From positions 248,001 to 312,000 of the forward strand of contig JAUIJE010000001.1 of NCBI GenBank assembly GCA_030431455.1: DNA of 64,000 bases. Reading direction: 5' to 3'. The notes below the pieces were generated by a model. That model worked only from the letters and a program-made list of their open reading frames with translations. It was not told the DNA's origin and made no database searches. A program made the translations under genes and the position numbers. Below, piece after piece: positions 33,478-62,948 of the stretch (positions within the stretch are counted from its first letter, which is position 1; each line of letters begins with the position of its first letter). This stretch comes from a bacterium (GTDB taxonomy: Bacteria; Myxococcota; UBA727; JAUIJE01).

Positions 33478-33491
33478 CGCCGCGGCGCCGC

Positions 33492-40162: not shown

Positions 40163-40738
40163 ATGTCTAAGACCGTGGCGCTGACCAACATGGAGCTCGA
40201 TGACATCCTGACCGCACAGCTCGTGGTCGCTTGGGCGGGCGAGGGGGGTGAAGCCAAGCGCCTCGGGTGGTGGCGCACGGACATGTGCAGCGAGTACGGC
40301 GGCGAGGACTTGATGAAGCGTTTGACGCCGACGACCTGGCCATGGGCGGTGCTCGAAACCGCGCGGGAGGCAGCGCGGCGCACGGAGCAGGGTGTGGTGG
40401 AGAAGGACCACAGCCCCGATGAGGTGTTCAGTCTTTATCGCATGGGCTTTGCCATCGATGAGCAGCTGGACGAAAGGCTCGATGCACACCGTCGGTCGGG
40501 GAAACTCCCGCTGGAAGCTCTTCCCGGGCTTGTCGAGCTGCTCGAGGGCAACTGGTCCGCGGACAAGATGGCCGATTGGGTCACGGGGCACGGCGATGCC
40601 TCCACCACAACGGAACCGCTCGGCCAGAAGCTCACCGGTCAACCGCCGGCATCGATCGAGCTACGCACCAAAAAGCTCATCAGCGCCTTGGTCCCGCTCC
40701 GAGACGACTACCCGTTTCCCCATTGGAGGCTTTCGTGA
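40163..40738 (+). CDS. brxE: BREX type 6 protein BrxE
   Basis: A 191-residue protein in the exact place of BrxE, the gene that distinguishes type 6 BREX. It is helical and soluble, beginning MSKTVALTNMELDDILTAQL and including EAKRLGWWRTDMCSEYGGED, LMKRLTPTTWPWAVLETARE and SPDEVFSLYRMGFAIDEQLD. The ATG follows CAGGAGGGG. The stop overlaps the BrxA GTG (GTGA). Its biochemical role in BREX is not established. Assignment rests on size, position and the order of the following genes more than on a motif. Confidence 0.8.
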   Translation: MSKTVALTNMELDDILTAQLVVAWAGEGGEAKRLGWWRTDMCSEYGGEDLMKRLTPTTWPWAVLETAREAARRTEQGVVEKDHSPDEVFSLYRMGFAIDEQLDERLDAHRRSGKLPLEALPGLVELLEGNWSADKMADWVTGHGDASTTTEPLGQKLTGQPPASIELRTKKLISALVPLRDDYPFPHWRLS

Positions 40739-41525
40739 CGGTGTCATCGGCCTCCCGCCCTCGCGAGGAAACGTCCGTGCACACACGCATCCTGAAGTGT
40801 GCGCTCGAAATCGATGACACGCGCGCGTACTGGGCCCACGGCGCTCGCGCCGAGCGGGACCGCACGCCGAAAACCGCCTTCGATGAGGCTTGGTTTGGCT
40901 CAAGGAGCATGAAGCGCGTCGAGGTGTTGATCACCAACTTCCGTGCGCGATTCGATGCGTTCCCCCCTTCCTTGCCCGTCCTGTCGGCGTGGAAAGACAT
41001 GGAGCCGAAAACACGCGGCATCGTGTGCCATTGGCACATGCAGCTGTCGGATCCGCTCTACCGGCGCTTCACGGGCGAGTACTTGGTGGAGCGTCGGGAC
41101 CAGACCGACACCGTTACCCGCGATGCTGTGCTCAAGTGGGTGAGCAGCGAAGGTGCAGAGCGCTGGACGATGCCCACCCGCATCCAGTTTGCGTCTAAAC
41201 TCCTGTCGGTGGCGTACGCAGCAGGATTGGTTGGCGGCAACCGGGACCCCAGGCCCTTGGTGTACCCACGGGTCGAAGACGATGCGCTGACGTATCTGAT
41301 GTATTTGCTGCGCAGCGTTGCGTTCGAAGGAACGCTGGCGAACAATCCGTATCTCGCTTCCGTCGGCCTCGACGCGGGATTTGCCACCGACCGTCTGAGG
41401 GGCCTGAGTGCCCTGTCGTACCGACGCCAGACTGACCTCGTGGAAGTCGACTGGGCGTTTGACACGCTCGAAACCTGGGCCGCGGGCACCGTGCACCAAG
41501 AGCGCGCCAATGTCGGGAGCTACCT

Positions 41526-41529
<4 letters not shown>
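40735..41529 (+). CDS. brxA: BREX protein BrxA (DUF1819)
   Basis: A 264-residue BrxA-family protein, a small helical DNA-binding component of BREX complexes. Visible pieces are TRILKCALEIDDTRAYWAHG, KRVEVLITNFRARFDAFPPS, DPLYRRFTGEYLVERRDQTD (the core SDPLYRRFTGEYL pattern is typical of the family) and LVEVDWAFDTLETWAAGTVH. I start at the GTG at 40735, which overlaps the BrxE stop; upstream in-frame codons are BrxE's shadow. The stop overlaps the BrxB ATG. Confidence 0.88.
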
Positions 41530-42155
<626 letters not shown>

Positions 42156-42165
42156 GACCTAGACC

Positions 42166-45100
42166 ATGAGCAAAACGAATACGCCCATGCGCGAGCTGTT
42201 TGTTTCGGATGTCACCCGGGACATTCCGCCGGTGGTCTATTTCCACGAACAGGACCCGTTGCGGGTGGCCTCGGAGATTGACGAATACATCATCACGGGC
42301 GGCTGGCCCGACGAGCATCCCAACCACCGCAGGGTCCCAGACGGCATTCACGAGCAGTACGTCAAACTCCTCACCAACATCAAAAAGGAACTCGACAAGA
42401 CCGGCGGCCCCGCGTTGCCCACCGCATGGATCTCGGGCTTTTATGGGTCAGGGAAGTCGAGCTTCGCGAAGCTCTTGGGCATGGCCCTCGATGGGACTGC
42501 ATTGCCGGACGGGCGGTCGGCGGCCGACGCCTGGCTCAAACGCGACATCTCCCCCCGCCGAGACGAACTCGCGGCGGCATGGTCGGCGTTGCGCGGTCAA
42601 ATCGACCCCATCGCCGTCGTGTTCGACATTGGCGCGGTGGGTCGCGACAACGAACACATCCATGCGGCGATCGTGCGGCAGGTGCAGCAGCGGCTGGGCT
42701 ACTGCAGCAAAGACGCGTTGGTCGCCGACTTCGAGCTCGGGCTCGAACGACGCGGTCAATGGCAGGACTTTCTGAAAGCCGCAGAAAAGGCTCTGGGAAG
42801 ACCCTGGGATGACGTCAAAGACCGCCCTCTGGCCGAAGAAGAGTTCTCGCAGGCGATGCATGAGCTTGAGCCCGAGCGATACGAAGACCCCATGGCTTGG
42901 ATCGCCAGCCGGGCGGGCATGAAGTCAGCGAAAAACTCCCCAGAGGAGGCCGTCACCGCCATCGACGACATGCTGAAGTTCCGGCAGCCGGACGCCACCC
43001 TGTTCGTGGTCGTCGATGAGGTCTCGCAGTACGTGCTTTCGCACAAGGACCGCGTGGACCGTTTGCGCGCGTTTGCGAGCGCGCTGGGCGCAAAGCTCCG
43101 GGGCAAGGCGTGGCTGTTGGCCCTGGGCCAACAGAAGGTCGACGAGGAAGCGGGCGATTCATTTTTGGTGTGGGCCAAGGACCGATTTCCGCCCAACCTG
43201 CGGGTGCACCTCTCGGCGACCAACATCCGCGATGTGATTCACCAGCGGCTGCTGCGCAAAACTGAGGCTGCCGCCGCCTCACTGTCAAAGCTGTTCGATC
43301 AACACCGGGCCAATCTCAAGCTCTACGCCTATGGGTGCGAGGGCATCTCGTCGGAAGAGTTCGTCGAGACCTATCCTCTATTGCCCGAGCACATCGATCT
43401 ATTGCTGCAGGTCACTTCGGCGCTTCGCACCCGTTCGAGCCGCGCGCAGGGCGACGACCAAGCGATTCGCGGGTTGCTGCAGATGTTGGGCGAGCTCTTT
43501 CGCTCACAGAATCTCGCCGACGCTGACGTGGGCACCCTGATTTCGTTCGACATGATCTACGAGGTCCAACAGACGGCGCTCGGCTCCGATGCCCAACACA
43601 GCATGGCCCGCATCCTCAACCAGTGTGCCGAAGACGAGGACCCGCTGCTCGTCCGCGCCGCGAAGGCCGTGGCCCTGCTCGAACTCGTGTCCGACACATT
43701 GCCCACCACCTCGGACCTGGTGGCGAAGTGTCTCTACGACCGACTCGATCGCGGCGACAACAAGAAGTCGGTCGAGGCCGCGCTCGAAGAACTCAAGCAA
43801 CGCAACCTGCTCGGCTATTCAGAAAAGACGGGCTACAAACTGCAGTCGAGCGCGGGCGAGGAGTGGGAACGGGACCGCCGCGACATTCCGGTCGCCACCG
43901 AGAAGCTGAGCGACATCGTGAAGGGCGCGCTCGACGAGCTGCTCGCACGGCCGGAACGGCCCAAGCTTGAAGGCACGCCTTTTCCGTGGGCGGGGCGTTT
44001 TTCCGACGGGCACCGCCACGATGACGTCGTGCTCAAGGACCCGCGCGATGGCCGGGCGGTGTGGGTCGATTTTCGATACCTGGCCAAGGACGACCGCAGC
44101 GATTCGGCTTGGGCCAAAAGAAGCGACGAAAGCGCTCTCGCCGACCGCATCGTGTGGGTGTGTGGCGAGCCAGATGAGCTGAAAGACAAAGCCCGCGAAC
44201 TCGCGCGGTCGCAGGCGATGGTGCGCCGCTTCAAACCGCGCAAAGAGTCATTGAGCCAGGCCAAAAAGCTCCTTCTGCAGCAGGAAGAAAACCGCGTCGA
44301 AGACCTGCAAAAGGCGGTGATGGAAGCGGTGGCATCCACCTGGCTCGCAGGCCGAATCTATTTCCGGGGCGAGTCCATCGACCCCAAGAGCCTGAGCGAT
44401 GGGTTCACGTCTGCGCTCTTTGCGGCGGCGGAAAAGAAGTTGCCGGTGCTGTTCGACCGGTTCGTGGGCACCAACATCACGCCCTCGGAGCTCTCGGTTC
44501 TGCTCGATGCGGAGCTGTCGGGGCCTTCGAGCAAGTTTTTGCCTGAAGAGCTCGGCTTGCTTGAACTCGACGGGGGCAAATACGTCTCGTCGTGCGAAGG
44601 GGTGGTGCCCAAGCGCATCCTCGAGTTTTTGGACGAACACGATGGAGCCGCGGGCTCGACCCTCGACAAAGCGTTCGGTGGGCCGCCCTATGGCTACTCG
44701 TTGGCGGTCATCAAGGCCTGTACCGCGGGTCTGTTGCGCGGCAGCAAGGTGAAGGTCCAGACCGAAAGCGGCGCGAACCTCACCGCGATTCGCGACGCCA
44801 ATGTGCGTGATGTGTTCGAAAAGGACCGCGACTTCAAGCGCGCGACCTTCTACCCCGCGGGTGACGACGACATCGGGTACGCCACGCGGTCACGCATCTG
44901 CGCTTTTTTCGACAAGCGGCTCGAGGTCAAACTCAATCGAGAAGACAACGCCATTGCCGACGCTGTACAGCAACATTTCCCGCACCAGCTCGACCGCGTG
45001 CGCGCGCTGGAGCGCTTGCTCAAGTCACTCCCTCCCAAGACCGAAATCCCTGACAAGCTGGGCGCGCTCGAGGACGCCTTTGTGCAATGCCTCAAGAACG

Positions 45101-45815
45101 TCCGCCTGACCCAGCCCACTGTGCGGGCAGTCAAACGCCACTTGGATGCGCTGCACGATGGGATGCAAATCCTCGGACACTTCACCGCCGAACTGACCGA
45201 CGACGTGGTCGCCGACCTGCGCGCGGCCGCCGATGTGCGCGATCACGAAATCGAACAGCTGCAAAAGGCACACGTCGCCCACGAGGGCCTTTTGCAGCAG
45301 GTGGACGACGTGCTCGCCCAGCTCGACAGCAAAAAACCCTGGCAAGGCCTTGCCGACATCGCAGATGCGCTCTCGGCGGTGAAGGACGCGTACAAGGCCG
45401 AACGCAAGCAGCGCATCCTTCTGCAAGAAGAACAGGCCCAAGCCGCGCGGTCCCGGCTGAAGGCGCGGGCCGGCTTTGCCACGCTGACCGCCGACCAGGC
45501 GCACAAGGTGCTGCGGCCGATCAAAGACGCCCAGGCCCAGACCGGCGAAGACGCCTACGCCCCGACTCTGCTCCAGCTCAAAGAAGGCTTTGAGGCCAAG
45601 CTGCGCGAAGCCGAGGACCACGCCAACGACATCCTCGACCAGCTCTTGTCCGAAAAACCCGGCGACGAAGGCGTCACCGTCGAGAAGGTGCGCATCACGC
45701 TCAAGGGGCGTGAAATCTCGACCCAGGCAGAACTCGACGCGCTGCTCGACGAGGTGCGATCGCGCATCGAGGACAAACTCGACGAAGACAAAGGCATTCG
45801 CGTGAGGATCATCTC

Positions 45816-45819
<4 letters not shown>
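42166..45819 (+). CDS. brxC: BREX P-loop ATPase BrxC
   Basis: A 1217-residue giant ATPase, the BREX motor/scaffold. The N terminus RELFVSDVTRDIPPVVYFHE is characteristic of BrxC/PglY. Walker A is SGFYGSGKSSFAKLLGMAL (about residues 88-106) and Walker B is ATLFVVVDEVSQYVLSHKDR (about 280-299). The middle contains winged-helix-like regions (LTPTTSDLVAKCLYDRLDRG-type, here LPTTSDLVAKCLYDRL), and the C-terminal third is a long coiled coil with many Glu, Lys and Gln (residues about 1030-1150). It probably couples ATP hydrolysis to recognition of unmethylated DNA with PglX and PglZ. ATGA overlap with pglX. Confidence 0.93.
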
Positions 45820-50276
<4,457 letters not shown>

Positions 50277-50355: not shown

Positions 50356-51816
50356 ATGTGGGATTTCTACGGACGAGCCAAAGAAAGAGCACAGATGCAG
50401 AGCATCTTGTCTCGCCGTCGATGGTTCTTCGCCCGCATCACAGGTCGGAGGCGCATCGGCAAGACGACCCTCGTGCAACGCGCTCTTCGCGAGGTCGACG
50501 GGATTCCCGTCCTGTATGTCCAGATTCCCGACTCGGCTCCCGCGGGCGTTCTCGCCGCCGTGGGGAGTGCGATGGAGATTTTCGAGCTGACGCGGCACTA
50601 CGAGCCTCCAAAAACGCTGCTTCAGCTCGCTCACCTCATCCAAGACCTGGCCCGCGCGGGCTACGTCGTCGCCCTGGATGAGTTTCAGTACTTCAGTCGG
50701 AAGCCGTTGTTTGAGTTCACCTCGCACCTTCAAGCGGTGGTCGATGAGCTCTCGGCGCAGGCCGCAGACGTGCCCGGCGGGTTGGTGGTGCTCGGGTCGT
50801 TGCATGCTGAGCTGGTGGCGCTGCTGGAGGACCGACAGGCCCCGCTCTACAACCGAACCACCGATCACATCGAACTCGACCACCTCGACACCGCCTCGGT
50901 GTTGACGATTCTGAAGGCGCACGCCGACACCACATCCGAGCGATTGCTGTTCTTGTGGAACCTCTTCGAAGGCGTCCCCAAGTTCTATCGGGATTGCTTC
51001 GAACAAGGGGTCATCGGGTCTGACCGCCGCGCACTGCTGCGCAAGATGTTCTTTCAATCGTCATCACCGCTGCGCACGGAGGCAGAGAACTGGTTCTTGA
51101 GCGAACTCCGCGGGCGTTACGACGTGGTGCTCAAGTTCGTCAGCAAGAACCCCGGTTGTACCAACGGTGACATCGTCGCTCATGTGCGGGAAATCTCCGT
51201 GGAGAACGCAGACCAGGTCGGTGGTCATCTCAAGATTCTGCGCGACAAGTACCGCATGCTCGAGCGCAAGGTGCCGATCTTCGCCCAGGCGACATCCAAG
51301 AAGGGGCGCTACTACATCCGCGACAACTTCCTCCGTTCGTGGCTGGCTGCCCTGGCAGACCCGGTGGCGGCGCTCAACTTCCGTCCCGAGGAGCAGCTTG
51401 TCGAGAGGGCCGACGAACGATTGAAGGTGGCGGAGGGCTATGCACTGGAGCGGCTCGCGGCCCAGCTCTATGAAGAGCGGAGTCGCCTTGGCATCGGCGA
51501 TTTTGCCCTGACCAAACGCATCGAGGGGTATTGGAACAAGGCCGAGACCGAACTCGACTTGGTGGCTCTCGATGAGGAGAGCAAAATCGTTCGGTTCGGT
51601 ACCTGCAAACGAAACGCCGACAAGCTCCTGCCCGACCTCAAGAACTATGATGGGCACATCCAGAGGTTCTTGGATGCCCACGCGCGCTTGCAGACCTGGC
51701 GCATCGAGCGTGTGGCGATCGCGCCGAACATCCCACAGAGTCTGCGACCCCAGCTCGAAAGAGCGGGGTATCGCCCCCAAGATCTCGCCGACCTGAGCCA
51801 GGGGCTGATGCCATGA
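50356..51816 (+). CDS. Archaeal-type AAA ATPase with DUF234-like C-terminal domain, inserted in the BREX operon
   Basis: A 486-residue STAND/AAA-type ATPase. It opens MWDFYGRAKERAQMQSIL, the F-x-G-R-x-x-E-hook of this family. Walker A is ARITGRRRIGKTTLVQRALR (about 29-48) and Walker B is YVVALDEFQYFSRK (about 104-117); a winged helix around residues 265-330 follows. The C-terminal DUF234/PD-(D/E)XK-like domain includes RIEGYWNKAETELDLVALDE and VRFGTCKRN, that is, E-x-D-L-V-A and F-x-x-C-K. That is close to the nuclease-like core of such ATPases. It is not a canonical BREX gene. The 79-base low-GC gap before it and the ATGA coupling to pglZ suggest a later insertion that kept the operon working. 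Confidence 0.85.
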   Translation: MWDFYGRAKERAQMQSILSRRRWFFARITGRRRIGKTTLVQRALREVDGIPVLYVQIPDSAPAGVLAAVGSAMEIFELTRHYEPPKTLLQLAHLIQDLARAGYVVALDEFQYFSRKPLFEFTSHLQAVVDELSAQAADVPGGLVVLGSLHAELVALLEDRQAPLYNRTTDHIELDHLDTASVLTILKAHADTTSERLLFLWNLFEGVPKFYRDCFEQGVIGSDRRALLRKMFFQSSSPLRTEAENWFLSELRGRYDVVLKFVSKNPGCTNGDIVAHVREISVENADQVGGHLKILRDKYRMLERKVPIFAQATSKKGRYYIRDNFLRSWLAALADPVAALNFRPEEQLVERADERLKVAEGYALERLAAQLYEERSRLGIGDFALTKRIEGYWNKAETELDLVALDEESKIVRFGTCKRNADKLLPDLKNYDGHIQRFLDAHARLQTWRIERVAIAPNIPQSLRPQLERAGYRPQDLADLSQGLMP

Positions 51817-54665
51817 GGTCTGAGGTCCGCGCTGCGCCCGTCTCCGCTGCCCTTCGCGCCGAGGTGTCTTCTTCGGTGCAGAAGCATGGCTTGGTCGTGT
51901 GGCTCGATGCCGAGTCGAGGTACGACGCCTTTGTCGATGCGCTCCTGGTCGACGACGGACCCCCTTTCTCGGTGGTCGCCTTTCGCGGGAGCTTCTTGGA
52001 GACGATGCTGGCGCTGGAGCCGCTGACGGCGGGGACCGATCCGCCGCGTGTTCTGGTGCATCTGCCCGGGTTCAACAATGACACTGTGCGCGTCACACCT
52101 TTGTACGACTTGTTCGCCGCTGGCACGCGGTTCGAAAAGGCGCTGCCGACCCTGGTGACCGAAGCGGCCGCAGGGTTGGTGCAAGCCGAGCTTGTCGACG
52201 GGTTTTTGGCCCAAGGCGACGTGACCCTCGAGGCCGCGGATGGGTGGCTCGCGAGCCAGCTGGCGGACGAGACCGGCGGCATCGCGTCCGAGCTGCAACG
52301 CGCAGGTTTTCCTGGCTTCATCAGTCGACTGCTGGAGCGCGGCGCCGGGCGCTATGTCGCGACCGAAGAGACCAGGGCAGCCCTTGCCGACTTCTTGTCT
52401 CGGCGCCTCGGCATTGCGTCGTCGTGGTGGGAAGACCTCGGGAAAAGTGGTGAGGGTGCCGGCGACTATGCGTTCGTCGCGTCGTCGTGGGTGCTCGCCG
52501 TGGAATACGTGCACGACTTGACCCATCCGCCGTACGACGAGCGATTGGCCCCCCTCAAAGCCCTGCCCAAAGCCACGGTCGAAAGGTGCCAAGCCCTCGC
52601 GCAGTACCTGCGTGAGCACCATGCGGAGCACTACCAGCAGTCCGCGGACAACACCGAAGAGCTTTTGGTCATCGACCAGCAGAGCGCGCGGGCCGAAGAC
52701 CTGGGTCAGGTCGACACATTCAAGTTCGAGGAGCAGCGCATCTTCGATGGCACCATCGCGGCACTGGAGAGCGGCCAGTACGCCATGGCCCACGAGTGGG
52801 CGCAGCTCCGTGCGGCCGGCGGCTCATTTTGGCTTCAGGGTGAGCCCAACCGCATCGCGGCGTGGTCGCTGCTCTTGCATGCCGCGGAGTTGGGGGTTGC
52901 CCTCGACGGGGCCTCAGAGGCCCCCACGAACGCCACGGTGGCGGAGGTGGTCGATGCCTATGTTGCACGCGGGGTGGCCGTCGACGGCGCGCATCGACGG
53001 CTCGAACAGCGGCGCTTGGTGCTTCATCCACATTTGCCCGCGTACCACCGCATCCGAGCCTGCCTCAACGAGATGCGGTCCCGCTGGCGCTCGTGGGCCG
53101 ATCAATGGGCCGACGCGTTCAACGCGGCTTGTCGTACGCACGGCTTTGTGGCCGAGAGCGCCTTGCAGCAGCGGCGGCTTTTCGACGACGTGGTGATGCC
53201 GCAAGTCGAGGCGGGCACGGTGGCGTACTTCGTCGTGGATGCTCTTCGCTTCGAGATGGCCGAAGAGCTCAGACGTTCGATCGGCGACGAAGCGCGGTCG
53301 ATGATCACGCTTCGGCCAAGACTCGCCGAGCTGCCGACCGTCACCGAGGTGGGCATGAACGCCCTGGCTCCCGTCCATGACGGCGGCGCTCTGCACCCCG
53401 AAGTGAAGGGGGGCAGTCTCAAGGGGTTTCAACAAGGTGCGTTTCGCGTGTTCGACCCCAAAACGCGGCAAAAGGCGATGCACCAGCGCGTCGGTGGCAC
53501 CCAATGTCCCTGGATGAAGCTTGGCGATGTGTTGGCCCGCGACGAAAAGAAGCTCAAAGAGACCGTCTCGAAAGCCCGGCTGCTGGTGGTGCACTCGCTG
53601 GAGATCGACAACGCGGGCGAAAAGGGCCTCGGTCCCTCTGCCTTCGACCATGCACTTCAGGATCTCAAAGCGGCTTGGCGGTTGCTCCGAGACGCTGGCG
53701 TACAACGGTTTGTCATCACGTCGGACCACGGCTTCTTGCTTCTGCACGGCGGAGGCCAACAACCAATCAAACACGGCAACAAGAAGACCCCCAATCGACG
53801 CTACGTGCTCTCGGCGGCGGAGGCGGACCATCCCGGCGAGTTGCGCGTTTCGTTCAAGGAGCTCGGCTATCAGGGCGACAACTTGCAGCTGATGATGCCG
53901 GAGACGACGGCGCCGTTTGACATCGGCCAGCGCGACACGTCGTTTGTGCATGGGGGCAACAGTCTGCAGGAGCGGGTCATCCCCGTGCTCACCCTCGAAC
54001 ACGAGGGGATGCGCGGGGGCGATGGTCTGACCTACCGCATCCAGGCCAAGGCCGGCGATGGTCTCTTGGGCATGCACTGCATCGAACTGACGGTGATGCC
54101 CACAGGGCCGCAGGCGGGCTTGTTCGGCGGGGCCGAGAGCGTGGAACTTGGGTTGCGGCCCCAGGACCCGGCGCGAAGCCTCGTTGTGGTTCCTTGCCAG
54201 ACCCGCCCCGAAGGCCATCTACACGGCAGCGTCATCCATGCTCCGGTGGGAAAAGAGATCGAACTTTTCTTTCGGGTGCAGGGCCCTGAACAAGGACGGC
54301 AACAAGTCGAGCTGCACCACACCGGTGCGGCCGTCGACGTCGAGCCTTGCACCGTGGCCGGCCGGTTTGCCGTCGAGGTCTTGGGTCTCGCCGCCTCAGA
54401 GCAAACGGGGGAGGCCGAGGGGCCCGCCTCCGACAAGATGGCATGGCTCAGCGAGTTCGACGACGAGGGGGTGCGCGATGTGTTTAGGCATTTGGCCGAG
54501 CACGGCAACCTGACCGAGTCGGAAGCGGCCAAGATGGTGGGCGGGCCGAGGGCGTTGAGACGGTTCTCGCGGAACTTTGAAACGTACCGGCAACGACTTC
54601 CGTTCAACGCGCGCATCGAAACGGTGGCCGGCGTGAAGCGCTACGTCCGCGAGGGCGAACGATGA
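51813..54665 (+). CDS. pglZ: BREX alkaline-phosphatase-superfamily protein PglZ
   Basis: A 950-residue PglZ, the signature BREX protein. The alkaline-phosphatase-fold core shows GTVAYFVVDALRFEMAEELR (about 466-485, metal-binding Asp) and FVITSDHGFLLLHGGGQQ (about 634-651, Asp-His). The N-terminal third is helical. The last ~72 residues (from AWLSEFDDEGVRDVFRHLAE through VAGVKRYVREG) are a discrete winged-helix-like domain shared with the zinc-ribbon protein three genes downstream. It acts as a metal-dependent phosphodiesterase/nuclease in related systems and is essential for BREX. Start overlaps the inserted ATPase stop (ATGA). Confidence 0.95.
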   Translation: MRSEVRAAPVSAALRAEVSSSVQKHGLVVWLDAESRYDAFVDALLVDDGPPFSVVAFRGSFLETMLALEPLTAGTDPPRVLVHLPGFNNDTVRVTPLYDLFAAGTRFEKALPTLVTEAAAGLVQAELVDGFLAQGDVTLEAADGWLASQLADETGGIASELQRAGFPGFISRLLERGAGRYVATEETRAALADFLSRRLGIASSWWEDLGKSGEGAGDYAFVASSWVLAVEYVHDLTHPPYDERLAPLKALPKATVERCQALAQYLREHHAEHYQQSADNTEELLVIDQQSARAEDLGQVDTFKFEEQRIFDGTIAALESGQYAMAHEWAQLRAAGGSFWLQGEPNRIAAWSLLLHAAELGVALDGASEAPTNATVAEVVDAYVARGVAVDGAHRRLEQRRLVLHPHLPAYHRIRACLNEMRSRWRSWADQWADAFNAACRTHGFVAESALQQRRLFDDVVMPQVEAGTVAYFVVDALRFEMAEELRRSIGDEARSMITLRPRLAELPTVTEVGMNALAPVHDGGALHPEVKGGSLKGFQQGAFRVFDPKTRQKAMHQRVGGTQCPWMKLGDVLARDEKKLKETVSKARLLVVHSLEIDNAGEKGLGPSAFDHALQDLKAAWRLLRDAGVQRFVITSDHGFLLLHGGGQQPIKHGNKKTPNRRYVLSAAEADHPGELRVSFKELGYQGDNLQLMMPETTAPFDIGQRDTSFVHGGNSLQERVIPVLTLEHEGMRGGDGLTYRIQAKAGDGLLGMHCIELTVMPTGPQAGLFGGAESVELGLRPQDPARSLVVVPCQTRPEGHLHGSVIHAPVGKEIELFFRVQGPEQGRQQVELHHTGAAVDVEPCTVAGRFAVEVLGLAASEQTGEAEGPASDKMAWLSEFDDEGVRDVFRHLAEHGNLTESEAAKMVGGPRALRRFSRNFETYRQRLPFNARIETVAGVKRYVREGER

Positions 54666-54674
54666 GGGACGACC

Positions 54675-56018
54675 ATGACTGAGCTCAGCAAACGCGACAT
54701 CGAACACATCTTCGAAAAGCTGCGCAACGGCCTCGTGCCGGAGCGTGCGGTCGAGGCTTTTGCGGTGGGCATTGAGAAGCGGCGCGACGAGCTCAAGCGA
54801 CAACTCGATTTGGTGAGCAGCAAGAAAGGCAATGAGGGAAACACAAAGTTTCTGCGAGGCGCATACGGGTGTGGCAAGACCTTCACCGCGCGGCTGGCCA
54901 TTCACGATGCGCAAAAACGCGGCTTTGCCACCAGCTTTGTGGTGGTTTCGGACAACGACCTCCGCTTTCACCAGTTCGACGAGGTCTACCGCAAGGTCAT
55001 GAACGAACTGAGCACGGAGTCGTGCGAGCGTGGCGCGTTGGGTGACATTCTCGATCGCTGGATCGGCGAGGTGGAGGATGGACTGATCGACGGCGGGGAG
55101 GACGACTCTGCCCCCGACTTTGACGAAAAGGTGCGCAAACGGATCGACGCAGATCTGACCGCCGCGACCGGGGGCAAGATCCCCCAAGACTTCATTCGCG
55201 TCGTTCAGACCATTTTTGACCTCAAGCAAAAGGGCGAGACCGCGGAAGCCGGCGCGTTGATCAGTTGGCTTTCCGGAAGTCCCAATGTTGCGGCTTCGGC
55301 AAAGCGCGCGGCCGACATCAAAGGGGACATCGGCAGCCGCGCAGCCCTCGACTACCTGCGTGGCGTCTTGGAAATCGTCAAGGCCGCCGGCTATGCAGGG
55401 TTGGTGATCGTCATCGACGAGGCGGAGACGATTCTGCGGATGCCCCGCAAAGACTCGAGACACAAATCGCTCAACGGCATCCGGCAGATTGCCGATGCTG
55501 CAGGGTCATTTCCCGGGATGTTGTGGGTCTTTACGGGGACCCCTGAGTTCTTCGACAGCAAACGAGGGGTAGAGGGTCTCCCACCCTTGGCCGACCGACT
55601 GCGCTTTCAGAAAAGTGGTGCGTTCGCGAGCCTGAGACAGCCTCAGCTCGAACTCAAACAGTTCGACGCCCAGCGCCTGAAAGAAGTCGCGCTGAAGCTT
55701 CGTGAGCTTTTCCCCACCAAGGACCGGCGCCGTCTTGAGGCGAAGGTCAGCGATGAGTTCATCGGGATGCTTGTCGACCAGGTCACACAGGGGTTCAAAG
55801 GGCACGTGGGTGTGGTGCCACGGACCTTCCTGCGCGAGTTTTTGAACCAAATGGATTTGGTCGAGCAGGAAGGGGACGAGTACGACCCAGCTGCGCAGTA
55901 TTCGTTCGCCGCCCGTGAGCTCACGCCGGAAGAGAAGGCGGCCATGGAGGGGAGAGGACCGACCGACCCCGCCACCGATGAGGACGACGACTTCATCCCC
56001 GCCGCGGAGGTCTTTTGA
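54675..56018 (+). CDS. brxD: BREX ATPase BrxD
   Basis: A 447-residue ATP-binding protein of the BrxD family (DUF2791), found in BREX types 2 and 6. It begins MTELSKRDIEHIFEKLRNGL. Walker A is FLRGAYGCGKTFTARLAI (about 60-77), Walker B is GLVIVIDEAETILRMPRKDS (about 240-259), and sensor-like MLWVFTGTPEFFDSKRGVEG follows. The ending is acidic (TDEDDDFIPAAEVF). It lies 9 bases after pglZ and its stop overlaps the TTG start of the helicase, so brxD and brxHI are translated together, as expected for functional partners. Confidence 0.93.
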   Translation: MTELSKRDIEHIFEKLRNGLVPERAVEAFAVGIEKRRDELKRQLDLVSSKKGNEGNTKFLRGAYGCGKTFTARLAIHDAQKRGFATSFVVVSDNDLRFHQFDEVYRKVMNELSTESCERGALGDILDRWIGEVEDGLIDGGEDDSAPDFDEKVRKRIDADLTAATGGKIPQDFIRVVQTIFDLKQKGETAEAGALISWLSGSPNVAASAKRAADIKGDIGSRAALDYLRGVLEIVKAAGYAGLVIVIDEAETILRMPRKDSRHKSLNGIRQIADAAGSFPGMLWVFTGTPEFFDSKRGVEGLPPLADRLRFQKSGAFASLRQPQLELKQFDAQRLKEVALKLRELFPTKDRRRLEAKVSDEFIGMLVDQVTQGFKGHVGVVPRTFLREFLNQMDLVEQEGDEYDPAAQYSFAARELTPEEKAAMEGRGPTDPATDEDDDFIPAAEVF

Positions 56019-58726
56019 GCGTTTTCGCTCGTTTCGCCCCGCGCTTGCAGGAGGCCATCGTTGGCCGGCTCGGCTGGTCGAGCCTCAGACCCGTGCAAGA
56101 GCAGGCGGCAACGGCGATGCTCGACGGCAAGAACACCGTCATTCTTGCACCGACGGCAGGTGGCAAGACCGAAGCGTCGATGTTTCCGGTGCTCTCGAAG
56201 ATGGTGGAGAAACCTCCCGAGTCGGTGAGCGCGCTTTACATCGCTCCCATCAAGGCACTGCTGAACAACCAAGCGGCGCGCCTCGGTACGTACACGGAGA
56301 TGGTGGGACTTCGTCGTTTCCTGTGGCACGGGGATGTCGGTCAGGCAGACCGCAAAAAGTTCATCAACGACCCCGCGGCGTTGTTGATGACCACGCCGGA
56401 ATCACTCGAGGTCATGTTGATGTCAGCGCGGGTGCCCGCACCGCGGCTTTTCTCCGACCTGCGCTTCATTGTCATCGACGAGGTCCACGCGATGGCGGGG
56501 ACCGATCGCGGCGCCCACCTCATGAGCGTCATCGAGCGGATTCGGCGTCTGACGGACAATGACATTCAGCGCGCGGGGTTGAGCGCCACCGTGGGCAACC
56601 CCGACGCTATTCTTACTTGGCTCACGGGGACGTCGGAACGCGGCGGTGAGGTGATTGACCCTCCCAAGAAAAAGACCGCGCGTCAGCTTGCGGTATACCT
56701 CGAGCCGACCGAGATCGACCTTGCCCGGCACGCTGCGAAAAAGGCGTACGGGCACAAGAGCTTGATGTTCTGCGAGACGCGGGCCACGAGCGAGTCGATC
56801 GCAGACCACATGCGCAATCGCCGCACGGAAGTGCATGTACATCACAGCTCGGTGTCGCTCGAACAGCGCCAAGAGGCCGAGGCGAAGTTCGAAAAAGGGG
56901 AGAACACGGCCATCGTGTGTACGTCGACAATGGAACTCGGCATCGACGTCGGTGACCTCGACTACGTATTCCAAACCGGGGCTCCGTCCACGGTGAGCTC
57001 GTTCCTGCAACGGATGGGACGGACCGGGCGACGGCCAAACTCGACACCCAACATGACGTTCTTCTGCCTGGACCAGGAGCACGTCCTGCAGGCAGCAGCG
57101 TTGATCGAGCTGGCCAAGGAGGGGTGGGTCGAGCCCGTCGAGGTCCAGACACGATGTTGGCCTGCGCTGGTTCATCAGACGTTCGCCATCACGATGGAAC
57201 GAGGAAGCGTTCCGCGGACCGAGCTGTGGAATCAACTCAGGCGGGTGCCGGACTTTTCCGGCATCGACGACGATGAGTTCGACGAGATGGTCGACCACAT
57301 GGTGAGCCGCGCGTTCCTGTTCGAGAGCAGCGGCCGACTCGCGATGGGAGAACAGGCCGAGCGCTCCTATGGGCGACGCAACTGGATGGAGCTGTACGCT
57401 GTGTTCAGCACGCCCCAGTACTACCGCGTGTTCACGGGAAGCGGCGCCGACATCGGCTCGCTGGAGCAGAGCTTCATCGATCGCCTGGTCGAGGACATGT
57501 CGAGCTTCTTGCTCGGGGGACGTGCGTGGTTGGTGCAACACATCAATCACAAGAAGCGACAAATCACTGTCACCCCGGCGCCGCGCGGAAAGAAGCCAAG
57601 CTGGGGCGGCTTCGTCCCCAAGCTGTTGGGGTATGAAGTGTGTCAACGCGTAGCGACGCTTCTCCGTTCGGATGCCAGCATTGGGTATCTCGATGATGTG
57701 GCGCGGGCGATGCTCGACGAGGACCGGGCAGAGATGCGGTCGCTCCTTCTCAATACCACCCACGCCATCCAGCACGACGAAGACGGCCTCCGTTGGTGGA
57801 CGTACGCGGGCGGACGCATCAACCACACGTTGAAATATGCATTGGCGGAAAGCGCTGGGTGGAAGGTGGTCGCGGACAACTATCACGTCCGCATCGAGGG
57901 AGGGGCAACCCAAGGCGCCCTGGAAGAGCAGATCCAGAAGCTCAGGACGGAGGACTTCTGGAACGACATTGAACTATGGAAAGGCATCATTTCTCGCCTG
58001 CCGCCGTATCGGCTGTCGAAGTTTCAAGCCGCGCTGCCTCCGCGGTTCGAGAGTGAGACCATCGGGCGCTACATGCTCGATGCTGAAGGCACCCGTCGTT
58101 TTCTGAGCGCTGGAAAGGACGGAGCCACAGCATTTGAGTCGGCCATTTCAGCGTGGCGCCCGAAGGTACAAGAGGACCTCGACCTACCTCCGGCAAAGCT
58201 CGAACGGTCGGTTCGGCTTGTCGACGACCAGGCGGAGGCAGGGGACATCTGCCGGCGCCTGCGGAATGAATCCTACGTGGCGCTCGACATCGAGACGACG
58301 CTTCTCGAGCACGCCATCTGCGTCATTCAGCTGGCGACGCACACCGGTGTCTTCGTCCTTGATGCGCGCGCGTTGTCTGACCTCTCCCCGGTGGCGGAAC
58401 TGCTCGAGGATGCGGGCGTCACGAAGATCATTCACAACGCGGCGTTCGAGCGCGACTGTTTCGCCCAGATGAACATCAGCATTGCCAACGTGTTCGACAC
58501 CATGGTCGCTTCGAGGAAGCGGCGCGGCCGAGAAGCTGCCGGCGGCCACTCCCTCAGGGCTGTGTGCGCCCGAGAGTTGGGCATTGCCCTCAACAAGAGT
58601 GAGCAGAAATCGGACTGGAGGCAACGACCCCTTTCAGACGACCAGCTCAACTATGCGGCCCTCGACGTCGACGTCCTGATTCGGCTGTGGGACGTCTTCG
58701 AACCTCACGCGGAATCGGCGAGCTGA
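56015..58726 (+). CDS. brxHI: BREX Lhr-like helicase BrxHI with C-terminal RNase D-like exonuclease domain
   Basis: A 903-residue protein starting at a TTG that overlaps the brxD stop (TTGA). Residues 1-~600 are an Lhr-type superfamily 2 helicase: Q region LRPVQEQAATAM, motif I TVILAPTAGGKTEASM (about 43-58), motif II FIVIDEVHAMAGTDRGAH (about 150), motif III AGLSATVGNPD, and motif VI QRMGRTGRRPNS. Residues about 750-895 are a DEDDy 3'-5' exonuclease: SYVALDIETTLLEH (DxE), KIIHNAAFERDCFA, NVFDTMVASRKRRGRE and DDQLNYAALDVDVLIRLW (Tyr and Asp), as in RNase D. All four acidic residues and the Tyr are present, so it looks active. The fusion would couple unwinding to 3' strand digestion. Confidence 0.92.
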   Translation: MSVFARFAPRLQEAIVGRLGWSSLRPVQEQAATAMLDGKNTVILAPTAGGKTEASMFPVLSKMVEKPPESVSALYIAPIKALLNNQAARLGTYTEMVGLRRFLWHGDVGQADRKKFINDPAALLMTTPESLEVMLMSARVPAPRLFSDLRFIVIDEVHAMAGTDRGAHLMSVIERIRRLTDNDIQRAGLSATVGNPDAILTWLTGTSERGGEVIDPPKKKTARQLAVYLEPTEIDLARHAAKKAYGHKSLMFCETRATSESIADHMRNRRTEVHVHHSSVSLEQRQEAEAKFEKGENTAIVCTSTMELGIDVGDLDYVFQTGAPSTVSSFLQRMGRTGRRPNSTPNMTFFCLDQEHVLQAAALIELAKEGWVEPVEVQTRCWPALVHQTFAITMERGSVPRTELWNQLRRVPDFSGIDDDEFDEMVDHMVSRAFLFESSGRLAMGEQAERSYGRRNWMELYAVFSTPQYYRVFTGSGADIGSLEQSFIDRLVEDMSSFLLGGRAWLVQHINHKKRQITVTPAPRGKKPSWGGFVPKLLGYEVCQRVATLLRSDASIGYLDDVARAMLDEDRAEMRSLLLNTTHAIQHDEDGLRWWTYAGGRINHTLKYALAESAGWKVVADNYHVRIEGGATQGALEEQIQKLRTEDFWNDIELWKGIISRLPPYRLSKFQAALPPRFESETIGRYMLDAEGTRRFLSAGKDGATAFESAISAWRPKVQEDLDLPPAKLERSVRLVDDQAEAGDICRRLRNESYVALDIETTLLEHAICVIQLATHTGVFVLDARALSDLSPVAELLEDAGVTKIIHNAAFERDCFAQMNISIANVFDTMVASRKRRGREAAGGHSLRAVCARELGIALNKSEQKSDWRQRPLSDDQLNYAALDVDVLIRLWDVFEPHAESAS

Positions 58727-58729
58727 ACG

Positions 58730-59776
58730 ATGAGCTGGGAAGAAGACAGCGATGAGTTCGTCAGCCCGGACTCCGGGCGCGTGACGGGTAGAATCTGCAT
58801 TCGCTGTGCAGGAACGCTCTTCAAGACCTCGCCGACGTGTCCACACTGTGGCGCGGACGTCACTCGAATGGCGCTCGAAGAGAAAGAACGCCCACCGTCA
58901 CGGTCAAAAGTGCTTCAAAAGGCGAGGGCGGAGGCGTTCGGTGACGATGACGAGGTGACCGTCCTGCACCATGGGGGCAAAGGCGGAGGTGGGCATCTGC
59001 GAAAGGCGGCGCGGGCCGCGCCACCGAGACCCATGGCCCGAGAAGGGGTGCGTTCGGCCCTTCGGCGTCTGACCCTCAGACGTCACGAGGGAATCGGCGA
59101 CATGCACTGCGTTCGTGGAAAGCTGTCCGACCCGCGTGGCGAGCCTGTGCTCGCACAGCTTTTTGCCGTCGCGGAATCGGACGTGGCCATCGAGATTTGT
59201 CACGTGCGGCCCTCCGGTTGGCGACTTGGTGCCAAGCTTCTGCTTACTCCGTCCGAGGAGTTTGAGGTTCTGTTTCGACTCCTTGCGACTGAAGCCACGG
59301 AGACACGCATCGAGATTCGAACCCTCGAAGAGTCCGAGCATTCTCTGAGCGCGACCATACCGAGCACGTTCGTCACCGAGGCTCGGCAAGCGCGTGTCGC
59401 GCCCTTGGCCGTGCCCTCGGAGCCGGAAGAACCTGACACCACCTGGCCCTCGGGGCCGGAGGAGCCCGACGCCAATCATGACAAGCCGGAGCCCTCAGGT
59501 CGCGTTGAACCGGATGAATCAAAGCACGCGTGGAGCGCGGCCATCGAGGATCCCGGTACGCGGCGTGTCTTTCTTCACATCGCCGAGCACGGCGTGATCA
59601 CCGAAGAAGAGGTCGTGAGGATGGTCGGCGGACAGCGCGGAGCCCGGCGCTTTGCCCGGGCTTTCGAGAGCCACGCTCTTCATGTTCCATTCGAGGTGCG
59701 GATCGAGTCGGTTGCCGGCGTGAAGAGGTACACCCGCGTCGGCGGAACCGCCGACCTGACCAAGGGGGGAGCATGA
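58730..59776 (+). CDS. Zinc-ribbon protein with a PglZ-type C-terminal domain
   Basis: A 348-residue protein linking BREX and McrBC. Residues about 23-44 form a zinc ribbon (ICIRCAGTLFKTSPTCPHCG, two CxxC pairs). A basic linker follows, then a beta-rich domain (about 100-220; ICHVRPSGWRLGAKLLLTPS) and a Pro/Glu/Ser-rich hinge. The last ~72 residues, from AWSAAIEDPGTRRVFLHIAE to SVAGVKRYTRVG, align without gaps to the PglZ C terminus: I count about 40 of 72 identical by eye, including MVGG-x-R and RRF-x-R. It starts 3 bases after brxHI and overlaps mcrB (ATGA). No named family; probably an adaptor that uses the shared domain to join the PglZ complex. Confidence 0.85.
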   Translation: MSWEEDSDEFVSPDSGRVTGRICIRCAGTLFKTSPTCPHCGADVTRMALEEKERPPSRSKVLQKARAEAFGDDDEVTVLHHGGKGGGGHLRKAARAAPPRPMAREGVRSALRRLTLRRHEGIGDMHCVRGKLSDPRGEPVLAQLFAVAESDVAIEICHVRPSGWRLGAKLLLTPSEEFEVLFRLLATEATETRIEIRTLEESEHSLSATIPSTFVTEARQARVAPLAVPSEPEEPDTTWPSGPEEPDANHDKPEPSGRVEPDESKHAWSAAIEDPGTRRVFLHIAEHGVITEEEVVRMVGGQRGARRFARAFESHALHVPFEVRIESVAGVKRYTRVGGTADLTKGGA

Positions 59777-61863
59777 ACGTAGAGGATTGGCGCGAACGCC
59801 TTGCACAAGCCCGTGCCGACAGTTCCTACATGGCTGCTTTCGCGGACAACCAGGAACGTCGGAAGGCAGCAATGCCCGAGATTGCCGCACTGTTCGACCG
59901 CTTCGATGCGGGCGAAGTACCGGTCGACGAGCTTCGGTACGTCTTCGACACCCGCACGAGGACCCAATGGGACGTCCTGGGGCTCAAGGGTTTGTCGGGG
60001 GCGATGTTCCTCAATCAACTGGTGAAGCACCTCCCTGACCACCAAGAAGAGCTGGCAACCAGGTTGCGCGCCCTGCTCAGTCCGCCAAACAACGCCGCGG
60101 ACGGCAAGGCGAAACTCGAAGCGTTCCACAGCTGGTTGAAGGGGCTTATCGCGGAGGGGGTGGCCTCCGGGCGCAGCATCTCGCCAGGACGGCTTCCGTT
60201 CTTCACCAGCGCCGTCTGGCATCTTCGCGGGGCCACAGATTGGCCCATCTACTATCAGTCAGCGCGCGATGCGATCGATGAGTTCACCGAGTTCGAGTTC
60301 GACCGAAAAGACCCGGTCGCAAGCTATCTCGCATTTCGCACAGAGTTTGCGCGGCTGCAGGCCGAGCTCGGCTGCAGCCACTGGGAGCTTGCCCGACTTT
60401 GCGCGCGGCTCGTCGATTACGAATACGACCACAAGGTGGCCACCGCCAAGGACGCGACTCAAGTCAACGATCGACGAGAGCCTCGGACTTGGCTCTATGC
60501 GCCCGGTCAGCGAGCGATGAACTGGGACGAGAACTTCGCGAACGGATACATGACCCTTGGCTCGGCCGATGCAGGCGACCTGTCGCGCTACGAGGACAGT
60601 GAGCAGATTCTCGCGACTCTTTGGTCGCGCGAACCGACAGGGCCGAAGCCGAACAACGCGGCGCACGCCTGCTGGCAGTTTGCCCACGAGATGGAGCCTG
60701 GCGATGAGGTCATCGTCAAACGAGGGCGGGGCACCGTTCTCGGCTTTGGCAAGGTCGCTGGCGCGTATGAGTTTGACCCATCAAAAGGTGAATACCCACA
60801 CCGCCGAAAGGTGGTTTGGTGGGCCCAACGCGGAGAGCTCGAGTTCCACAAAACAAAGTTGGCGATGAAGACGCTGACCGACATCACGCGGTTTCAGTCG
60901 CTCGTGGACGACCTCCACCAACTCCTTGCTCAACTGGACCCGAAGGTCGCCACGGAAGTGGAGTCCGTCGAACCCGACGACGCAGCATCTCCGTATAGGC
61001 TGGAGGACGCACTCGAGGATCTATTTCTGGACCGTGCGACGGTGGAAGATGCGCTTCAGCTTCTGGCCCGAAAGAAGAATCTCGTGCTGCAGGGACCCCC
61101 TGGCGTCGGGAAGACCTTTGTGGCTCAGCGGCTTGCCTATGCTCTATTGGGTGCAAAGGACAAATCCAGGGTGTCGATGGTGCAGTTTCACCAATCATAC
61201 GCGTACGAGGACTTCGTCCAGGGGTACCGGCCGTCGGAGGATGGTGGCTTTGCTCGTTCAGATGGCCCTTTTCTGCGTTTCGCGAGCCTCGCGCTTCAAG
61301 ATGATTCCGGTCCCTACGTACTGATCATCGACGAGATCAATCGCGCCAACCTCAGCAAGGTCTTTGGCGAGCTGTTGATGCTCCTAGAAGCGGACAAGCG
61401 TTCGGATGAGTGGGCGCTCCAGCTTGCCTACTCCCGGGAGGGCGAAGCACCGTTCTTCATTCCGGACAACCTCTACATCATCGGAACCATGAATACGGCC
61501 GATCGCTCTCTCGCATTGGTCGACTACGCTCTTCGACGTCGGTTTGCGTTCGTTGACATCGCGCCGCGGTTCGGCGCAGAGACGTTCGGACGTCATCTCG
61601 CGGTGCGAGGTGTGGAGGCGTCGACGCGAAAGCAGATCAGCCAACGCCTCGCTGCTCTGAACCAGAAGATCGGGGAAGACCAGGACCTTGGAGCGGGGTT
61701 TCAAATTGGTCATAGCTATTTCTGCGATCCCGATGCGGACGCCGGCGACGTCTGGTTCGAGCGGGTGGTCAAGACGGAGGTCGAGCCCCTTCTGCGAGAA
61801 TACTGGTTCGATAGCGACGAGAAGGTCGAACAAGCGCTCCAACTGCTCCTGGGGGAGGAGTGA
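59773..61863 (+). CDS. mcrB: McrB-like AAA+ translocase with an N-terminal PUA/EVE-like module
   Basis: A 696-residue McrB-type motor. The AAA+ core has Walker A LVLQGPPGVGKTFVAQRLAY (about 438-457), the substrate-loop FHQSYAYEDFVQGYRPSEDG, Walker B YVLIIDEINRANLSKVFGEL (about 516-535) and the McrB signature YIIGTMNTADRSLALVDYAL (about 570). GTP rather than ATP use is expected for McrB. The middle, residues about 256-360 (GYMTLGSADAGDLSRYEDSE, MEPGDEVIVKRGRGTVLGFG, KVVWWAQRGELEF), resembles an EVE/PUA-like module of the kind that recognises modified bases. The first ~240 residues are helical. I start at the ATG at 59773 overlapping the zinc-ribbon gene. With mcrC it forms a modification-dependent restriction enzyme. 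Confidence 0.92.
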   Translation: MNVEDWRERLAQARADSSYMAAFADNQERRKAAMPEIAALFDRFDAGEVPVDELRYVFDTRTRTQWDVLGLKGLSGAMFLNQLVKHLPDHQEELATRLRALLSPPNNAADGKAKLEAFHSWLKGLIAEGVASGRSISPGRLPFFTSAVWHLRGATDWPIYYQSARDAIDEFTEFEFDRKDPVASYLAFRTEFARLQAELGCSHWELARLCARLVDYEYDHKVATAKDATQVNDRREPRTWLYAPGQRAMNWDENFANGYMTLGSADAGDLSRYEDSEQILATLWSREPTGPKPNNAAHACWQFAHEMEPGDEVIVKRGRGTVLGFGKVAGAYEFDPSKGEYPHRRKVVWWAQRGELEFHKTKLAMKTLTDITRFQSLVDDLHQLLAQLDPKVATEVESVEPDDAASPYRLEDALEDLFLDRATVEDALQLLARKKNLVLQGPPGVGKTFVAQRLAYALLGAKDKSRVSMVQFHQSYAYEDFVQGYRPSEDGGFARSDGPFLRFASLALQDDSGPYVLIIDEINRANLSKVFGELLMLLEADKRSDEWALQLAYSREGEAPFFIPDNLYIIGTMNTADRSLALVDYALRRRFAFVDIAPRFGAETFGRHLAVRGVEASTRKQISQRLAALNQKIGEDQDLGAGFQIGHSYFCDPDADAGDVWFERVVKTEVEPLLREYWFDSDEKVEQALQLLLGEE

Positions 61864-62948
61864 CCACAACGGTAGAGCCTGAAGACTTTGGCGGCGTACC
61901 CGTCCGCAATGTCTACTACCTCCTTTGCTACGCCTGGCAGCGCCACGAGGCGCTGACGGCGCTCCCCGTCGGGGCAGAGTACGCCGAGCGCCCGGTTGAT
62001 CTCTTTGCGTTGCTCCTCACCGACGGCGTCGCCAGGGCACTCAAGCGCGGCATCGCACGTGAATACGTGCAGATGGAAGACTGTCTGAGACGGCCTCGTG
62101 GAAAGTTCGACGTCTCGAAGACGGTCAAAGAAGGCCTCTTGCTCGATGCGCAGGTTGCTTGCTCCTTTGATGAGCTTTCTCCAGATACGCCCGAGAACCG
62201 GATTCTGAAGGCCACCTTGCGTCTCCTGTTGAGGGACCCGCACCTCGCCGCGGCGGTGAAGCAGTCGTGCCGTCGGCTCGTCGCGCGACTTGCTGGCGTG
62301 GCGGACGCGCCGTTCACTCTCCGAGAGCTGCGGCGCGTCCGCATCCATCGCCACAACCAGGACTACCGATTCCTGATGAGTTTGTGCGAACTGCTCCATC
62401 GCCTTTGGATTCCTGGCGGCGGCGGCCCGGGACAGTTCTCCGACATCCGTCGTGAGCCGCAACTGTTGGGGCTTCTCTTCGAGGAGTTCCTGCGCAGTCT
62501 GTGGAAGCGCGAACAAGCAACGTGGCGGATCGCTCGAGAGACCCTGAAGTGGGACCTCGATGAAGAAACGTCCTTCGCACGCATGATGCCGTCCATGAAC
62601 ACGGACATTTCGCTTTCGTGCGGAGCGTCGCGCGCCATCGTCGAGTGCAAGTGGACCAAGCGTCCATACGAACGGGATGACGGTTCTAAAAAGCTCCGGT
62701 CGACCCACCTCTATCAATTGTTCGCCTACCTCAAGAACGCTGAGGCCCGAGGAGCGCCTTACGCGCGCTGTACGGGCGTGCTCGTCTACCCCTCTGTCGG
62801 CGAGGACGTCCGGGCCGACCTGAGCCTTCAGGGGCACCGTGTGCTCGTCAGGAGCGTTGACCTGGGGCAGCCCTGGGATGCCATTCGCAGACAGGCCCTC
62901 GCGGTGCTGCCGCGGCCCACCTCGGAAGGCGCAGTCCGCACCCCCTGA
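61860..62948 (+). CDS. mcrC: McrC-like nuclease subunit
   Basis: A 362-residue McrC. The N terminus GVPVRNVYYLLCYAWQRHEA is typical (NIYYLLCYAW in many homologues); YVQMEDCLRRPRGKFDVSKT and FDELSPDTPENRILKATLRL follow. The nuclease core is MNTDISLSCGASRAIVECKW (about 245-264): Asp, then Glu-Cys-Lys, the PD-(D/E)XK set. It starts at a GTG overlapping the mcrB stop (GTGA). McrC stimulates McrB hydrolysis and makes the double-strand cut. It is the last gene of the defence island. Confidence 0.93.
   Translation: MTTTVEPEDFGGVPVRNVYYLLCYAWQRHEALTALPVGAEYAERPVDLFALLLTDGVARALKRGIAREYVQMEDCLRRPRGKFDVSKTVKEGLLLDAQVACSFDELSPDTPENRILKATLRLLLRDPHLAAAVKQSCRRLVARLAGVADAPFTLRELRRVRIHRHNQDYRFLMSLCELLHRLWIPGGGGPGQFSDIRREPQLLGLLFEEFLRSLWKREQATWRIARETLKWDLDEETSFARMMPSMNTDISLSCGASRAIVECKWTKRPYERDDGSKKLRSTHLYQLFAYLKNAEARGAPYARCTGVLVYPSVGEDVRADLSLQGHRVLVRSVDLGQPWDAIRRQALAVLPRPTSEGAVRTP

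Follow-up and report, generated by a model that had tools for sequence, protein, structure and literature searches.

The znr gene, which immediately follows the last gene of a complete BREX type 6 locus, encodes a paralogue of PglZ without the nuclease domain: as judged from alignments and structural models, ZnR consists of a zinc-ribbon head joined to the two C-terminal domains of PglZ. Since it combines a putative zinc-binding head with the end domains of PglZ and lacks the nuclease, ZnR is probably an accessory subunit of BREX. Our leading explanation, which we hold tentatively and with somewhat less than even confidence, is that this subunit docks on the BREX complex where the PglZ tail attaches, most likely at BrxD-BrxHI. 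The open-licence papers on BREX that were searched contain no mention of a zinc-ribbon PglZ-tail protein.

Within the window (the whole stretch of 64,000 nucleotides that was analyzed), the BREX genes are arranged as brxE-A-B-C-pglX-S27-pglZ-brxD-brxHI and continue without a gap into znr, mcrB, and mcrC (Table 1). The znr gene starts 3 nt past the brxHI stop codon, the mcrB start codon lies inside an ATGA overlap with znr, and mcrC in turn overlaps mcrB; the placement of znr between brxHI and mcrB given in the preliminary description is thus confirmed. Judging from these junctions, the brxHI-znr-mcrB-mcrC genes are translationally coupled. The GC content at third codon positions (GC3) is 0.74-0.80 in the BREX genes, 0.69 in znr, 0.71 in mcrB, 0.75 in mcrC, and 0.89 in the next gene, a pattern that is only suggestive of an acquired island, with a slight difference between the BREX core and the genes znr and mcrB. 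Two large upstream genes at 33375-40075, encoding a PD-(D/E)XK nuclease protein and a UvrD helicase with a PD-(D/E)XK nuclease (an AddAB-like pair), have the lower GC3 of the island. Other type 6 loci carry different inserts at the pglX/pglZ, pglZ/brxD, or brxD/brxHI junctions, which suggests that the positions between type 6 genes, here occupied by the PDC-S27 gene, serve as cargo slots. The additional domain of BrxHI is RNase D-like (residues 734-897) and is also found in the BrxHI of a type 2 chimaeric locus described below.

Table 1. Genes of the BREX type 6 locus and its downstream neighbours, with the domains of ZnR and of the PglZ tail (positions in the window).
Feature	Position	Strand	Basis
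brxE	40163..40738	+	PDLC02495, E=1.4e-68
brxA	40633..41529	+	profile match; start codon not settled
brxB	41526..42155	+	profile match
brxC	42166..45819	+	profile match
pglX, BREX type 6 methyltransferase	45816..50276	+	NF033455, 1931.5 bits (cut-off 900)
ATPase/DUF234 gene (PADLOC candidate PDC-S27), inserted between pglX and pglZ	50356..51816	+	profile match
pglZ, BREX type 6 phosphatase/nuclease family	51813..54665	+	NF033443, 1036.5 bits (cut-off 400)
PglZ Ig-like domain (within pglZ)	about 54030-54380	+	model
PglZ winged helix (within pglZ)	54432-54659	+	model
brxD, AAA+ ATPase	54675..56018	+	profile match, tree
brxHI helicase, extra C-terminal 3'-5' exonuclease domain	56015..58726	+	profile match, tree
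znr, ZnR-PglZ-tail protein, 348 aa	58730..59776	+	ORF translation, BLASTP, profile searches
Zinc ribbon motif C23-x2-C26-x10-C37-x2-C40, N-terminal head	58796..58849	+	sequence; Pfam sub-threshold; low pLDDT
Ig-like beta-sandwich, ZnR residues 112-215, homologous to PglZ 740-856	59063..59374	+	sequence and model
Acidic/proline-rich linker, ZnR residues 216-262	59375..59515	+	AlphaFold model, mostly low confidence
ZnR C-terminal winged helix, residues 263-338, common to PglZ	59516..59743	+	alignment and model
mcrB, AAA/GTPase-type subunit	59773..61863	+	profile match
mcrC, McrBC nuclease subunit	61860..62948	+	profile match

The relationship between ZnR and the PglZ protein of the same operon is evident from BLASTP (E=1e-26), which aligns ZnR residues 86-338 with PglZ residues 714-948; the alignment begins at PglZ residue 714, the N-terminal region of PglZ being absent from ZnR. 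A Pfam search finds no match to the PglZ catalytic domain PF08665 in ZnR, and its score against the BREX_PglZ_6 model NF033443 is 99.4 bits, below the cut-off of 400. The strongest similarity is in the winged helix, where 40 of 72 residues are identical between ZnR 267-338 (59528-59743) and PglZ from residue 877 (54441-54659), including the motifs MVGGxR and RIExVAGVKRY present at both C-terminal ends; in shuffle tests, the C-terminal piece reaches a z-score of 43. This identity had been reported in the preliminary description with matching motifs and coordinates. The shared stretch is longer than was described there, since the beta domain that precedes the winged helix is also homologous (z=8.7 when taken alone). 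The identity of the Ig-like domains is 20%, and their strand order is equal in the AlphaFold models.

The AlphaFold2 model of ZnR comprises an Ig-like beta-sandwich at residues 112-215 and a winged helix at 263-337, which are connected by a linker (216-262) that is probably flexible; pLDDT is mostly 85-95 per block in the first of these domains and mostly above 90 in the second. In the model of PglZ, a beta domain (740-856) is followed by a low-confidence hinge (858-873) and a winged helix (874-946), and the secondary-structure elements of both tail domains occur in equal order in the two proteins. The similarity that was expected to extend to folded structure therefore does so in predicted models, which were built on 16-18 homologues and are not fully independent, as the alignment for ZnR consisted of PglZ tails. 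Foldseek relates the beta domain of ZnR to Ig-like sandwiches of the adaptor appendage, MSP, and beta-galactosidase, and whole PglZ to Acinetobacter PglZ (9zn5) and PorX; the winged helix has no significant match among PDB sequences that would assign it to a known family. The N-terminal head is poorly predicted (low pLDDT). Its putative zinc ribbon is read from two CxxC knuckles, C23/C26 and C37/C40, and scores 17.8 bits against DZR_2 (cut-off 27), with zf-ChsH2 also below threshold.

The two shared domains differ in conservation. Between the operon PglZ and its type 6 orthologues, 57% of the winged helix, 56% of the catalytic core, and 38% of the Ig domain are conserved; between ZnR and PglZs the values are 52-55% for the winged helix and about 20% for the Ig domain. 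ZnR keeps 19 of the 21 winged-helix columns that are conserved in PglZ, compared to 19 of the 51 others (p=2.7e-5, to be taken as a guide since the columns are not independent). Because of this conservation and the retained columns, the winged helix seems to be equally constrained in ZnR and in PglZ. On the winged-helix tree (72 columns, weak support), ZnR is placed within the type 6 PglZ tree, in the broad group of its own PglZ and not as its sister. We rejected a recent origin of znr by copying of its own pglZ, because the nucleotide identity of the two is about 59% and ZnR is not a sister branch of this PglZ (with weak support in a short alignment).

We compared all loci fetched against a winged-helix profile, and nearly all copies collected terminate type 6 PglZs. 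This search for the domain alone, which had been suggested as a check, revealed it also on proteins that are not PglZ: the carriers of this kind are ZnR, a 250-aa protein, and a helicase-nuclease. Two further candidates for short carriers were discarded, one (L003) being a PglZ cut by the contig end and the other (L050) a frame of PglZ interrupted by masked sequence. Profile comparison gives no detectable relation of the tail to Shango SngA or to the ordinary PglZs of type 2 (probability at most about 5%), and a shared tail was rejected for both. BrxD and BrxHI (54675-58726) resemble Shango SngB and SngC, so that a helicase-ATPase module may be common to the BREX and Shango defence systems.

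A probable partner of the winged helix is suggested by a chimaeric PglZ (L069/L074), whose core is of type 2, whose C-terminal winged helix is of the type 6 family, and in which no Ig domain is recognisable. The best BREX models for its locus (L074) are PglW, type 2 PglX, PglY, and PglZ_2, the PglW and PglY scores being below the cut-offs. The BrxD and BrxHI proteins of this chimaeric locus fall inside the type 6 clade, where BrxHI groups with the genome's own type 6 BrxHI (support 1.0), whereas the winged helix is missing from 13 sampled type 2 loci with ordinary type 2 BrxD and BrxHI, including several close relatives. Thus, the winged helix goes with the type of BrxD-BrxHI and not with the PglZ core. 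However, the chimaera is one event, and in most loci the part of pglZ that encodes the tail lies next to brxD. One recombination could therefore move the tail and brxD together without a functional match, although in the chimaeric locus a PLD-family gene separates pglZ from brxD. The genome in question holds both a type 6 BREX locus and the type 2 chimaera (L074/L075, G209:C104; L078, G209:C40).

We found no account, in the open-licence BREX papers searched, of how BrxD and BrxHI are connected to the BREX core. In Acinetobacter BREX, a fragment of PglZ comprising residues 1-98 co-purifies with BrxB, and a map-docked model puts the Ig-like C-terminal domains of PglZ at an implied dimer interface (PMC13326643). 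The nuclease activity of PglZ requires metal (PMC12205998). ZnR lacks the DNA-cutting part of PglZ and, by analogy with the type 1 PglZ, also the part for BrxB binding, and would neither cut DNA nor bind BrxB as PglZ does, while it retains the Ig-like domain that presumably contributes to PglZ-PglZ pairing in the type 1 BREX model. The winged helix would bring ZnR to the site of the PglZ tail, most likely the BrxD-BrxHI helicase module or DNA held there, Ig-to-Ig pairing with PglZ possibly assisting, and the docked protein would present its zinc ribbon as an accessory subunit. A weaker further suggestion is that ZnR also links this complex to McrBC, whose two genes follow znr. The adaptor role suggested in the preliminary description thus holds in part: both tail domains, the conserved residues, and the two other non-PglZ carriers give good support to the view that ZnR is a zinc-ribbon carrier of an attachment unit derived from PglZ, and its attachment to the BREX complex is supported indirectly, as the winged helix accompanies type 6-like BrxD-BrxHI even where the PglZ is of type 2.

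The main competitor of docking is a direct role in DNA binding, in which ZnR, with its zinc ribbon and winged helix, would bind DNA and load BrxHI or McrBC, or act as their sensor, while docking on no BREX protein. Type 2 PglZ is also said to end in a winged helix, and the wHTH domains of BREX were interpreted as DNA-binding (PMC12839542). The winged-helix fold of the model also favours this role. The invariant residues of the domain are two arginines in or near the third helix and a KR pair in the wing, which could indicate DNA binding equally as well as docking; however, most copies carry a net charge of no more than about +1 to +2. A further argument for DNA binding is the helicase-nuclease carrier, in whose genome no BrxD is detectable. 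The winged helix is therefore not tied to BrxD alone, and the strict claim that the tail equals a BrxD partner is weakened. On the other hand, the association of the winged helix with the type of BrxD-BrxHI in the type 2 chimaera speaks against DNA binding, and we consider this explanation rather unlikely.

ZnR could also serve as a brake or decoy: as a PglZ tail without catalytic activity, it would compete with PglZ for the complex and so tune nuclease activity or stoichiometry, with no link to McrBC. Its possession of the tail without the nuclease core and N-terminus, together with the preserved winged-helix residues, would suit such a role; the zinc ribbon and the coupling to mcrB would be superfluous for a decoy and the Ig domain of ZnR is strongly diverged, so that we regard this possibility as improbable.

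Evidence for a connection to McrBC comes only from the adjacency of the genes, the 4-nt overlap, and slightly similar GC3, on which basis ZnR may couple McrBC to the BREX complex; of the proposed adaptor role, this recruitment is the weaker part. No zinc-ribbon/PglZ-tail gene lies beside five other McrBC pairs examined. McrBC was found near no other type 6 locus examined. The first 230 residues of McrB (59773-60471), a candidate specificity or interaction region, have no Pfam match, and their matches on plasmids are limited to one haloarchaeal sequence. The same overlap, and the GC3 of znr that is nearer to that of mcrB than to most BREX genes, would fit a third component of an McrBC cargo that has its PglZ tail by descent only and works with McrBC independently of BREX. 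We find this very improbable, since the tail branches among those of type 6 PglZs and has preserved the residues conserved in them; ZnR as a standard McrBC component was rejected by its absence next to the five other McrB genes.

The architecture of ZnR is a singleton so far, because no second zinc-ribbon/PglZ-tail protein was found. Such proteins are absent from 195 genomes of its own phylum and from about 400, 400, 400, and 300 genomes of the phyla of the Thiocapsa, planctomycete, Streptomyces, and acidobacterium carriers, respectively. Scans of 85k species genomes by short peptide patterns, which have limited reach, gave no relative of full-length ZnR and PglZs only for the winged helix. 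Viral contigs contain no match, and the two matches on plasmids are both PglZ-sized proteins and not full-length relatives of ZnR. This isolation would fit a non-functional leftover of a pglZ duplication, an explanation to which we give the least credence of all, as the reading frame is intact and translationally coupled, a zinc ribbon was acquired, and the Ig domain diverged yet the conserved winged-helix positions were kept, which points to long purifying selection.

Under the docking explanation, a winged helix that moves with the type 6-like BrxD-BrxHI and is reused on non-PglZ proteins is a precise, testable candidate for the link of BrxD-BrxHI to the BREX core, and its reuse suggests a physical route for attaching extra effectors of BREX loci, beyond co-location. 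In a broader and unlikely version of this proposal, the PglZ winged helix would be a portable docking tag that loads effectors (PglZ, zinc-ribbon/McrBC, the 250-aa protein, and the helicase-nuclease) onto a helicase-ATPase machine such as BrxD-BrxHI, with McrBC as a plug-in effector of BREX.

Several known systems share parts of this arrangement. The two genes downstream of znr are mcrB and mcrC of the McrBC type IV restriction systems. Among PglZs of BREX type 2, the chimaeric member belongs to the same winged-helix family as ZnR, while the C-termini in the other 13 sampled loci are unrelated or undetectably related. The helicase-nuclease (L026 13496-19762, G161:C187; PADLOC PDC-S37-like) has the same C-terminal winged helix; unlike ZnR, it is a 2,088-aa enzyme that combines an M48 peptidase, a helicase, and an MTES_1575 nuclease domain, and its contig ends just downstream. 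The 250-aa protein (L006 1030-1782 / L019 18852-19604, G031), whose gene separates pglZ from brxD in another type 6 locus, is a second protein that carries this winged helix on its own; its N-terminal region is unassigned and, unlike in ZnR, the Ig-like domain and zinc ribbon are not recognised. Finally, the PglZ of BREX type 6 (NF033443; PADLOC PDLC02548) is homologous to ZnR in both the Ig-like domain and the winged helix, whereas in ZnR a zinc ribbon stands in place of the alkaline-phosphatase-like core and the N-terminal region.
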